Shown: piece after piece, positions 11,943 through 15,175 of the stretch
Position numbering within the stretch: position 1 is the first letter of the stretch
Layout: each line of letters opens with the position of its first letter
Source of the DNA: a virus
Length of the DNA stretch: 44,076 nucleotides
Virus record (IMG/VR): IMGVR_UViG_3300035091_000016
Coordinates: 1-44,076 of that record
Strand: one strand, 5' to 3'
The notes under the pieces: generated by a model
What the model was told of the DNA's origin: nothing
Seen by the model: the letters and a program-made list of their open reading frames with translations, nothing else
Database searches by the model: none
Translations under genes and position numbers: made by a program

Positions 11943-12955
11943 GCCAGGAACTAGTCCCCGCGGACCCCATCGAGACCGTGGATGCCGAGATCATCACGGA
12001 GGAGGACGAGTTCTGGATGGATGCCGCTCCGGCGGTGGACCAATACGGCGTGGACCTCCCGGGCCGCGTCAAGGGCCGGTACATCTACCCGGACCCCCCG
12101 GGCTATGTCCGGGCCAAGGGGGCCACCACGGGCTTTATGCGGATGACCAACCTGGCGTCCGCGTTCTCCGATCAGATCAGGCTCCAGCTCTGGCGGGAGC
12201 GCATGATCCTCCTGGGCCTCCGCTCGGATGAGGGCACGATGTTCGATGAACTGTGCGCCCAACCGCTGGAGCACATGGACCCCCGGGACGTGCGCGCGTA
12301 CCTGGAGCGGTTCGCCAAGGAGGCGGCCAATGCCGCGGGTGCCGATCGGGGGGCCAGGCGCGGCACCGCCCGCCACCTCATGGTCCAGACCAACCTGGAG
12401 ACCGGGACCATCGTGGGCAACCGCCGGATGAGGCTCCAGTTGTCGTCCCTCTGGGAGGCCCTGGAGCGCCACGGGCTGGAGCCCATTGAGGGCTGGAGTG
12501 AGCGCCGGGTGTGCAACCCGCGGTACCACGTCATTGGCACCCTGGACCTCCGGGTGCGGGACAAGGCCACCGGGGAGGAGGGCATCCTGGACCTCAAGAC
12601 GCAACGCTCGTTCTGGAGCTACCTGGAGATTGCCGGACAACAGTTCGGCTATGACGATGCGGAGTGGACCTGGGAGGGGCCGAACACCCCCGAGGGCCGG
12701 TGGGTCAAGAGCCCGCGCAACACCCTCACGGGCCTCATGCCGGAGAACATCGGCAAGCGGGTTGCCCTCCTGGCCCACATGCCCCAGGCCGATGGCCCGG
12801 GGACTCTCCCGGTGGAGATCCATGAGGTGTCCCTGGAGTTCGGCAAGCGCGTCCTGGACGTGGCCCTGGACAACGTGACCACCCGGAGCCTCGGGGCCTC
12901 CAAGGCCAAGGGCCGGAGAATTGGTGGTGTGAGGCCCTTGCGCCCTGGGCTATAG
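11939..12955 (+). CDS. Cas4/RecB-like PD-(D/E)XK exonuclease with WMD tag
   Basis: A 338-residue protein. The N-terminal ~35 residues hold the acidic tag 'EEDEFWMDAAPA' (21-32). The nuclease core shows D203 in 'IGTLDLRV' and D218-x-K220 in 'GILDLKTQ', the arrangement of PD-(D/E)XK nucleases of the RecB/Cas4 group used by phages for recombination; a helix with 'QQFGYDDAEW' follows, as in that group. ATG at 11939 overlaps the preceding stop (ATGA). It works next to an SF2 helicase and an SSB-like protein, giving a phage recombination module, although no annealing protein is obvious. Confidence 0.82.
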   Translation: MSQELVPADPIETVDAEIITEEDEFWMDAAPAVDQYGVDLPGRVKGRYIYPDPPGYVRAKGATTGFMRMTNLASAFSDQIRLQLWRERMILLGLRSDEGTMFDELCAQPLEHMDPRDVRAYLERFAKEAANAAGADRGARRGTARHLMVQTNLETGTIVGNRRMRLQLSSLWEALERHGLEPIEGWSERRVCNPRYHVIGTLDLRVRDKATGEEGILDLKTQRSFWSYLEIAGQQFGYDDAEWTWEGPNTPEGRWVKSPRNTLTGLMPENIGKRVALLAHMPQADGPGTLPVEIHEVSLEFGKRVLDVALDNVTTRSLGASKAKGRRIGGVRPLRPGL

Positions 12956-12968
12956 CACGTGATAGAGT
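12938..12968 (+). promoter_or_regulatory. early-type promoter for the structured RNA
   Basis: TTGCGC (12938-12943), 19-bp spacer ending GTGA, TAGAGT (12963-12968). The -35 and spacing equal those of the 19087 promoter, but the -10 region has diverged. The predicted start falls at ~12973-12975, at the foot of the first RNA hairpin. Confidence 0.65.
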
Positions 12969-12972
12969 AGGT

Positions 12973-13122
12973 ACATCGGAAGGGCCGGGGAAGCAACGGG
13001 CCTCGGGGGGACTTCCGATGGTGGCCCGATTCGCCAACGGATAGGGAGCCCTACCAAGACAGTTGGACCGGACCGCGGTGGTGAGCGCCTTAACGAGCGC
13101 GTAGGTACCGCGGTCCGGCAAG
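12973..13122 (+). ncRNA. structured leader or noncoding RNA, unknown class
   Basis: No reading frame of note is present, but the stretch is dense in perfect inverted repeats. A 9-bp stem pairs 12974-12982 with 13012-13020. CCAAC (13034-13038) pairs with GTTGG (13062-13066) around a small TAGG/CCTA hairpin (13042-13053). A perfect 12-bp stem pairs 13068-13079 with 13107-13118. The promoter just upstream would start the RNA at the first stem, and a tRNA-like gene follows 4 nt after the last. It could be a stable RNA, a precursor leader, or a regulator of the 13307 gene. I do not recognise the class. Confidence 0.6.
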
Positions 13123-13191
13123 GGGGAGTTAGCTCAACGGTAGAGCGGGCTCACTTGTAGTTGGTTGGGGGTTCAACTCCCCCACTCCCCA
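13123..13191 (+). tRNA. tRNA-Thr(TGT)-like, anticodon arm damaged
   Basis: The acceptor stem GGGGAGT/ACTCCCC, D arm GCTC-AACGGTA-GAGC and T arm GGGGG-TTCAACT-CCCCC pair perfectly. The anticodon loop reads CTTGTAG (anticodon TGT). The 3' half of the anticodon stem and variable loop is 4 nt too short: 69 nt in place of 73. Restoring GAGC after 'CTTGTAGT' would give a perfect GCTCA/TGAGC stem and a 5-nt variable loop. No CCA is encoded. It may be a decayed tRNA or one with a reduced anticodon arm. Confidence 0.65.
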
Positions 13192-13306: not shown

Positions 13307-13873
13307 ATGGCCAGCAACAAGCCCGCCGAGAACGCCCCCGCTATCACGTCCGAGGACGAGGAGTGGATGGACGGAGCATCGGCAACGTTCCCCAAGGCCG
13401 AGAACCTGGCCCCGAGCGTGCCCCCGAACTTCGGTCCGGGCCGCCTCGTCGCCATCTGGGCTCAGGAGAACGGCACCCGGACGAACGACAAGGGCAAGAC
13501 GTACCCGTACGTCCAGACCCTCACCCTCGTCCTGGACAACGGTCCGGACGGAACCCAGGTGGATGACACCGTGGGCAACGCTCCGGTCCGGCTGGAGGAC
13601 TTCCAGCACAGCACGGGCGGCCTCGTGGCGCGGCTCTCCAAGCGCGTGACGGGCAAGTCCCCCAAGGGCGTGCCGCTCAAGTACCGGCCGATGATCGGTC
13701 GCATGAACACCCAGGCCAGCTCCCAGAACAAGAACGTTCCGGCGTTCTCCATCTCGGAGCCCACCCCCGAGGACATGGTGAAGGCCCGGGAGTACAAGGC
13801 GATGATCACGGCCATCAATGCCGAACTGGAGGCCGCGGACGCCAAGGACGAGGACGCCAAGGCTTTCGAGTGA
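13307..13873 (+). CDS. SSB-like protein with WMD tag, 188 aa
   Basis: An acidic tag 'SEDEEWMDGASAT' (15-27) is followed by a ~110-residue beta-rich core ('GRLVAIWAQENGT', 'YPYVQTLTLVLDNG') compatible with an OB-fold single-stranded DNA-binding protein, then a helical acidic tail ('AMITAINAELEAAD', ending DEDAKAFE), as in phage SSBs. The position beside a nuclease and helicase and the acidic tail support the call, but no motif is decisive. The ATG at 13307 has AGAGGAA at good distance; it closes a unit ended by the terminator at 13892. Confidence 0.6.
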   Translation: MASNKPAENAPAITSEDEEWMDGASATFPKAENLAPSVPPNFGPGRLVAIWAQENGTRTNDKGKTYPYVQTLTLVLDNGPDGTQVDDTVGNAPVRLEDFQHSTGGLVARLSKRVTGKSPKGVPLKYRPMIGRMNTQASSQNKNVPAFSISEPTPEDMVKAREYKAMITAINAELEAADAKDEDAKAFE

Positions 13874-13891
13874 GGCAGGAACGGTAAGCCA

Positions 13892-13927
13892 GGAACGCCC
13901 CGGGGTCGCTCATCCCCGGGGCGTTCC
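13892..13927 (+). terminator. terminator after the SSB-like gene
   Basis: A perfect 14-bp stem (13892-13905 with 13914-13927), 8-nt loop, then TCCGTCT, 18 nt beyond the stop at 13873. Confidence 0.75.
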
Positions 13928-13948
13928 TCCGTCTAACGAGGAGACCGC

Positions 13949-15068: not shown

Positions 15069-15099
15069 ACTATAGCACACCACGGCGGGGGCGTGTCTA
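15069..15099 (-). promoter_or_regulatory. early-type promoter (leftward)
   Basis: TAGACA (15099-15094), 19-bp spacer ending CGTGGTGTGC, TATAGT (15074-15069). It drives the 15029 gene and is divergent to the promoter at 15145. Confidence 0.85.
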
Positions 15100-15144
15100 C
15101 CCTTGGGGGACCGCCGGACCAAAAAAGATTCCTCGGTCTGGGGG

Positions 15145-15175
15145 TTGTGGTGCGGTCCCCGTGGTGTGCTATAGT
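15145..15175 (+). promoter_or_regulatory. early-type promoter (rightward)
   Basis: TTGTGG (15145-15150), 19-bp spacer ending CGTGGTGTGC, TATAGT (15170-15175). The -35 lies between GGGG and CCCC runs that can pair. It drives the 15215 gene with a ~33-nt leader. Confidence 0.85.

Follow-up and report, generated by a model that had tools for sequence, protein, structure and literature searches.

We analyzed a 44,076-nt window, the complete IMG/VR virus record IMGVR_UViG_3300035091_000016, in which a non-coding gap of 351 nt between an exonuclease gene and an SSB-like gene holds a structured RNA region. This region probably represents one stable non-coding phage RNA of ~220 nt with a 3′ tRNA-like domain, belonging to a hypervariable tRNA-mimic locus with an effector or decoy role, a reading drawn from sequence comparison. 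The structural class of the RNA is well supported, while its function is something we infer.

The tRNA-like domain occupies positions 13123 to 13191 of the plus strand, scores 50.3 bits against the Rfam tRNA model, and is called by ARAGORN as a Lys-CTT tRNA without U33. Its acceptor, D, and T arms are those of a canonical tRNA: all 7 acceptor pairs form (GGGGAGU/ACUCCCC, 13123 to 13129 with 13184 to 13190), the D arm (GCUC-AACGGUA-GAGC, 13132 to 13146) has GG in its loop, and all 5 stem pairs of the T arm form (GGGGG-UUCAACU-CCCCC, 13167 to 13183). An anticodon stem-loop with U33, however, is missing. The defective anticodon region (13147 to 13166) leaves only 20 nt from the D stem to the T stem, and the arm predicted there is mispaired, 2 to 3 nt short, and closed by a loop of 3 nt. 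Read as Lys CUU, the anticodon is preceded by A rather than U at position 33; read as Thr UGU (loop CUUGUAG), it requires a C-U mismatch in the stem and a variable loop of 1 nt. A scan of the unit for a standard anticodon arm (5-bp stem, 7-nt loop, U33) found none. The 3′ end of the domain is A73 followed by CGC, and in a BLASTn search 53 nt aligned at 80.7% identity with a stretch of a Gordonia phage that is annotated as tRNA-Ala.

Ahead of this domain, the leader (12973 to 13122, plus strand) contains three predicted helices. Helix I (12974 to 13020) is a perfect 9-bp stem (12974 to 12982 with 13012 to 13020) where the RNA is predicted to begin. Helix II (13025 to 13046) is a hairpin with loop CCAA (13025 to 13027 with 13044 to 13046 and 13029 to 13033 with 13038 to 13042), and helix III (13068 to 13118) is a perfect 12-bp stem (13068 to 13079 with 13107 to 13118) enclosing an inner GCGC hairpin. 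A 12-bp stem arose in 6 of 4,000 dinucleotide shuffles of the gap, and the combination of two stems of at least 9 bp, one of them at least 12 bp, in none of 4,000. The fold energy of 12960 to 13130 corresponds to a z score of −2.7 on the plus strand and −3.7 on the minus strand, and that of helix III by itself to −5.4. The three helices had been proposed in a first-pass annotation of this DNA; helices I and III are perfect and exactly as described, while helix II is weaker (3 + 5 bp) and seen in the predicted fold only. That annotation's view of ~150 nt without a reading frame holds as well, no plus-strand open reading frame of at least 40 amino acids covering 12973 to 13122, as does its failure to recognize a known RNA class. 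Rfam 15 covariance models gave no credible match to the leader at E values up to 5, the tRNA downstream was the sole match in the region at the gathering threshold and remained so at a permissive one, and BLASTn of the leader against phages returned the tRNA match only. What had been described as an RNA lying ahead of a tRNA is followed by a tRNA-shaped element, but that element is anticodon defective and most likely forms the 3′ portion of that RNA.

Several candidates for the leader were rejected. Two contigs retrieved by a helix III pattern search proved by eye to be unrelated sequence, and a pairing of 13034 to 13051 with the anticodon region at 13147 to 13164 (72% over 18 nt) was no better than other chance pairs nearby. 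A theta (hepatitis delta virus-like) ribozyme was likewise set aside, with no Rfam ribozyme match and no tRNA-like elements in the text of the theta ribozyme paper.

The promoter reported earlier, TTGCGC-19-TAGAGT, is present as stated on the plus strand at 12938 to 12968 (−35 TTGCGC at 12938 to 12943, 19-nt spacer, −10 TAGAGT at 12963 to 12968), and its predicted transcription start, near 12975, falls at helix I. It is a weak match to the consensus in its −35 element and its spacer, and it encloses the exonuclease stop codon (TAG, 12953 to 12955) and, within the spacer, GCTATAGC at 12949 to 12956. In the window, TGTGCTATAGT has 17 sites within 2 mismatches, versus 2.1 expected, ahead of early genes (2809, 7132, 7399, 8550, 15069 to 15175, 16049, 16575, 18113, 19107, and 21740), and it is a putative phage-wide −10 or operator motif.

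We sought relatives of the locus among viral contigs with a helicase scan and then an exonuclease alignment scan. The upstream helicase retrieved ~14 IMG/VR phages at 40 to 56% identity, the exonuclease alignment retrieved additional relatives, and 27 related loci were compared; single-protein scans of viral contigs with the SSB-like protein or the exonuclease found nothing, and a scan of genome contigs found no relative. The order helicase, exonuclease, gap, SSB-like gene is constant across the close family. In most of the 27 loci, RNA-like content lies behind a promoter-like sequence, which lends support to the original proposal of a structured, promoter-driven phage RNA, although the extent of the RNA would now include the tRNA-like domain. 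A promoter-like sequence at the gap start scores at least 8 in 13 of the 27 loci, versus 2% of shuffles, and in most relatives the −35 element there lies over or next to the stop codon of the exonuclease. Further relatives have, by eye, TTGCGC ~17 nt ahead of TAAGGT, the counterpart of TTGCGC-19-TAGAGT in the window, and a GCTATAG element recurs among the gap promoters of relatives, in the spacer or as the −10. We propose to define the locus by its position between a phrog_466-type exonuclease and the SSB-like gene, by a promoter that overlaps the stop codon of the exonuclease, and by a T arm and acceptor that occur with no standard anticodon arm, and the window has all of these.

The gap of these relatives ranges from 64 to 1349 nt, and its content is entirely replaced between relatives. 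The comparison shows it to be a hypervariable locus of predicted non-coding RNA, with tRNA-like units whose anticodon domain has been lost or replaced. The top enriched 7-mers of the gaps are T-arm and D-arm words. The 15.3 kb of gap sequence contains 25 strict T arms, whereas the 275 kb outside contains 6, with 1 on the minus strand. A canonical anticodon arm is present in 2 of the 34 gap units versus 39 of the 46 tRNA units in control phage clusters (1.3% expected by chance). At L009 9498 to 9579, a full cloverleaf has its anticodon arm swapped for a perfect 12-bp hairpin; nested hairpins or extended domains take the place of the lower half in L005, L010, and L092, and L013 has a single hairpin and no D arm. 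About half of the gap units have R-CG straight after the acceptor, and the single unit of the window, followed by ACGC, fits this series at its mild end. Phage attachment sites were ruled out as an explanation by the full cloverleafs with 5′ acceptor strands and by the multi-unit arrays between replication genes. A literature search for phage tRNA-like arrays found no precedent, subscription papers being mostly outside its reach.

Other recurring elements were observed in and around these arrays. Three of the 6 T arms outside the gaps are located toward the ends of L011 and L012; those at L011:13500-13787 and L012:13359 point to second RNA arrays on the downstream side of the SSB gene. The motif GUUGCCGGU(A)CGAC...GUCUGAACCGG stands behind the promoter in several arrays (L107:5150, L109:5000, and L015:9895; long form at L009:9280 and L092:5120). 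Just ahead of the SSB gene, several relatives have a closing helix, GAGGGG(C/G)G...CCCCUC, with 30 to 58 nt inside (L005:10133, L010:10123, L014:10579, L015:10185, L016:10061, and L092:5547).

For the expression and processing of an RNA of this kind, we look to an analogue in mycobacteriophages. The most abundant RNA of L5, D29, and StarStuff is a stable non-coding Pleft transcript of ~500 nt that is processed to 100 to 400 nt (PMC5712189). It precedes an unrelated small gene whose message is far less abundant, and its region is toxic to Mycobacterium smegmatis and Escherichia coli (PMC5712189). In L5, its start was published at 51,672 and its 3′ end at 51,140 to 51,190, and deletions of 51,195 to 51,619 and 51,195 to 51,407 could not be purified (PMC5712189). 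A tRNA-like fold is not mentioned in the text of that paper (PMC5712189). We found that the 3′ part of the Pleft RNA folds in a tRNA-like manner (D29 48,084 to 47,981; SWU1 51,405 to 51,314); its acceptor is GGGUAG/CUACCC, and its UUCGAUU loop is invariant. The D29 unit, whole or in part, matches 135 phage records by BLASTn, all of them mycobacteriophages; it is unannotated and yields no ARAGORN call and no gathering-level Rfam match. From the difference in record length, we take L5 coordinates to be those of SWU1 minus 177, which agrees with the start published for L5 (51,672). If this holds, the unit would lie near L5 51,228 to 51,137, would end at the published 3′ end (51,140 to 51,190), and would overlap an unobtainable deletion.

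Among 13 distinct D29-type sequences, 96.2% of structure cells pair and 16 pairs are changed on both sides; double-change cells number 53, versus 16.7 in shuffles and 2 to 6 with partners slid. Compensatory changes, whose absence from homologues the first-pass annotation had named as a refutation, are strongly evident in this different member of the class. The T stem varies (CCAGG/CCUGG, CGCGG/CCGCG, UCGGG/CCCGA, GAGAG/CUCUC) around a constant loop. The minimum-free-energy fold of a single D29 sequence keeps the acceptor and loses the T arm, and the evidence for the D29 fold is therefore comparative and not energetic. Like the window RNA, the Pleft RNA combines a promoter, hairpins, and a 3′ tRNA-like domain (acceptor and T arm, no anticodon arm) ahead of the next gene in an actinobacterial phage. 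The two differ in length (~500 versus ~220 nt) and in position, the Pleft RNA lying at the right end of the genome and the window RNA between exonuclease and SSB, and the D arm of the Pleft unit holds an inserted hairpin. The window RNA stands outside the L5/D29 family by sequence, BLASTn of the window matching none of those phages, and what we suggest about its function rests on analogy rather than on a sequence homologue. Non-coding regions are also the most highly transcribed loci in a study of a Rhodococcus phage (PMC10986025). A hairpin, CCGGUGAAAAUCCGG, occurs both in the region of the L5/D29-type RNA (D29 ~48,445 and SWU1 ~51,805) and in one exonuclease-SSB array (L010 ~10,170). It resembles part of the cobalamin riboswitch core.

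The main rival to a free-standing RNA is a cis-acting leader of the SSB-like gene, whose helices and tRNA-like domain would control translation, stability, or attenuation. The RNA lies directly upstream of that gene, we found no plus-strand terminator between the two, and the gap always adjoins the SSB-like gene in close relatives. A leader sensing one signal, however, would not tolerate complete replacement of its content over lengths of 64 to 1349 nt and would have no need of multi-unit arrays, and the L5/D29 RNA precedes an unrelated small gene whose message it far exceeds (PMC5712189); we consider a cis-acting role unlikely. We see still less reason to regard the domain as an ordinary if divergent phage tRNA, read as Lys CUU or Thr UGU, whose precursor leader would comprise the upstream helices. 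The ARAGORN call, the Rfam score, and the Gordonia phage match speak for a tRNA, and the unit shares with phage tRNAs (RF00005) the acceptor, the D arm with its GG loop, and a T arm with a UUCRA loop. Yet neither anticodon reading gives a sound arm, with A at position 33 in one and a stem mismatch and 1-nt variable loop in the other, the arm is short in either case, and in 32 of the 34 gap units the anticodon arm is absent or replaced.

It is about as improbable, or slightly more so, that the region combines a decaying tRNA remnant with chance GC-rich inverted repeats, or is a DNA-level feature such as an operator or origin without RNA function. The window has about one 12-bp stem per 5 kb, several of them at terminators; folding is equally good on either strand, and GCTATAG elements recur in the window, so that part of the signal is a promoter or operator motif. 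In the relatives, however, T arms that have matching acceptors are restricted to a single strand and a single locus, the helix combination of the leader was absent from all shuffles, and the L5/D29 units covary and are expressed (PMC5712189). Several observations nevertheless weigh against a tRNA-mimic RNA. The window unit is the least extreme of its series, its anticodon arm short and mispaired rather than replaced, and it could be a decaying tRNA. Helices I to III have no detectable homologue in any collection searched, and several relatives (L004, L006, L012, and L086) have short gaps with no T arm. Gap windows have a mean folding z score of −0.76, only a little lower than the −0.30 of coding windows and equal on both strands, and the covariation comes from L5/D29-type RNAs, to which the window RNA has no sequence homology.

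Other known RNA classes offer partial likenesses. Transfer-messenger RNA (tmRNA; RF00023) has a tRNA-like top half bearing a non-anticodon lower part, and neither ARAGORN nor Rfam gave a tmRNA match in the window region. YrlA and other bacterial Y RNAs (RF02553) are non-coding RNAs that mimic tRNA; in the window region, Rfam gave no YrlA match at a permissive threshold. GOLLD and ROOL, which are large structured RNAs from the vicinity of tRNA genes in phages, are far larger than the window RNA and have no Rfam match in the window region.

The genome itself appears, from its tape measure protein, helicase, and exonuclease genes, to be that of a tailed, actinobacteriophage-like, soil-type virus. 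The locus is anchored upstream by the PD-(D/E)XK-type exonuclease gene (phrog_466; 11948 to 12955, plus strand; PHROGs E value, 1.2e-23; 14-member alignment) and downstream by the SSB-like gene with its acidic tail (13307 to 13873, plus strand; 12-member alignment at 33 to 56% identity). The SSB-like protein has no PHROGs or Pfam match, and its putative name reflects its acidic C terminus and its neighbors. A perfect 15-bp stem directly 3′ of this gene (13891 to 13928) is probably a terminator.

Comparable units and other motifs were seen beyond the family. An isolate, Nocardia phage NTR1 (MF477236), has in the gap before its Holliday junction resolvase gene a tRNA-like unit with T arm and acceptor that is unannotated (L233:4579-4650; no ARAGORN call), and unrelated viral contigs (L316, L317, L329, L306, L348, and L357) have tRNA-like units in which long hairpins replace the anticodon arm. 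Acceptor pairing of at least 6/7 was found in 82 of the 131 pattern matches with a 50- to 80-nt middle. Phage tRNAs in L273, L310, L315, L295, L257, L340, and L323, with apparently real CUNNNAA anticodon loops, have a ~45-nt insertion between the D and anticodon arms, often a hairpin and then ACAGCAA. A conserved hairpin, UGACRG-NNCG-GARAGA-CGNN, occurs just upstream of tRNAs or open reading frame starts in more than 100 diverse viral contigs (L113 to L232; also L010:9849, L014:10563, L016:9970, L090:5567, L100:4617, L103:1951, and L109:5259). Both of its free pairs are complementary at 111 of 121 distinct sites among the matches listed, no Rfam family covers it in the scanned loci, and it is likely a separate, unrecognized phage RNA motif. 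Proteo-phage-1 RNA (RF03044) lies ~100 nt upstream of it in two contigs (L146:2667-2745 and L150:527-604).

If the region does encode a tRNA-mimic RNA, transcription from the promoter over the exonuclease stop codon would begin at helix I, and host tRNA maturation enzymes would recognize its tRNA-like top half, RNase P at the 5′ side and RNase Z or exonucleases with CCA addition at the 3′ side. These enzymes would excise the RNA from the exonuclease-SSB transcript, protect its ends, and stabilize it. The freed RNA, unable to decode, may then act as an effector in host takeover, either by tying up host proteins that bind tRNA (processing enzymes, translation factors, or tRNA-targeting defenses) or through its variable lower half. 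The rapid turnover of units fits an arms race.

More broadly, and tentatively, actinobacterial phages, and probably phages in general, may carry a large unrecognized class of anticodon-less tRNA mimics, produced as processed arrays and diversifying fast as effectors or decoys against host proteins that handle tRNA or defend by targeting it, with the toxic L5/D29 RNA as the first expressed example. If so, such mimics would currently be annotated as odd tRNAs or left as empty intergenic sequence. The covariation-supported tRNA-like fold provides a structural handle on a toxic RNA that is the most abundant transcript of the best-studied mycobacteriophages, and it points to tRNA mimics as a general class of phage RNA that annotation tools may miss or mislabel.
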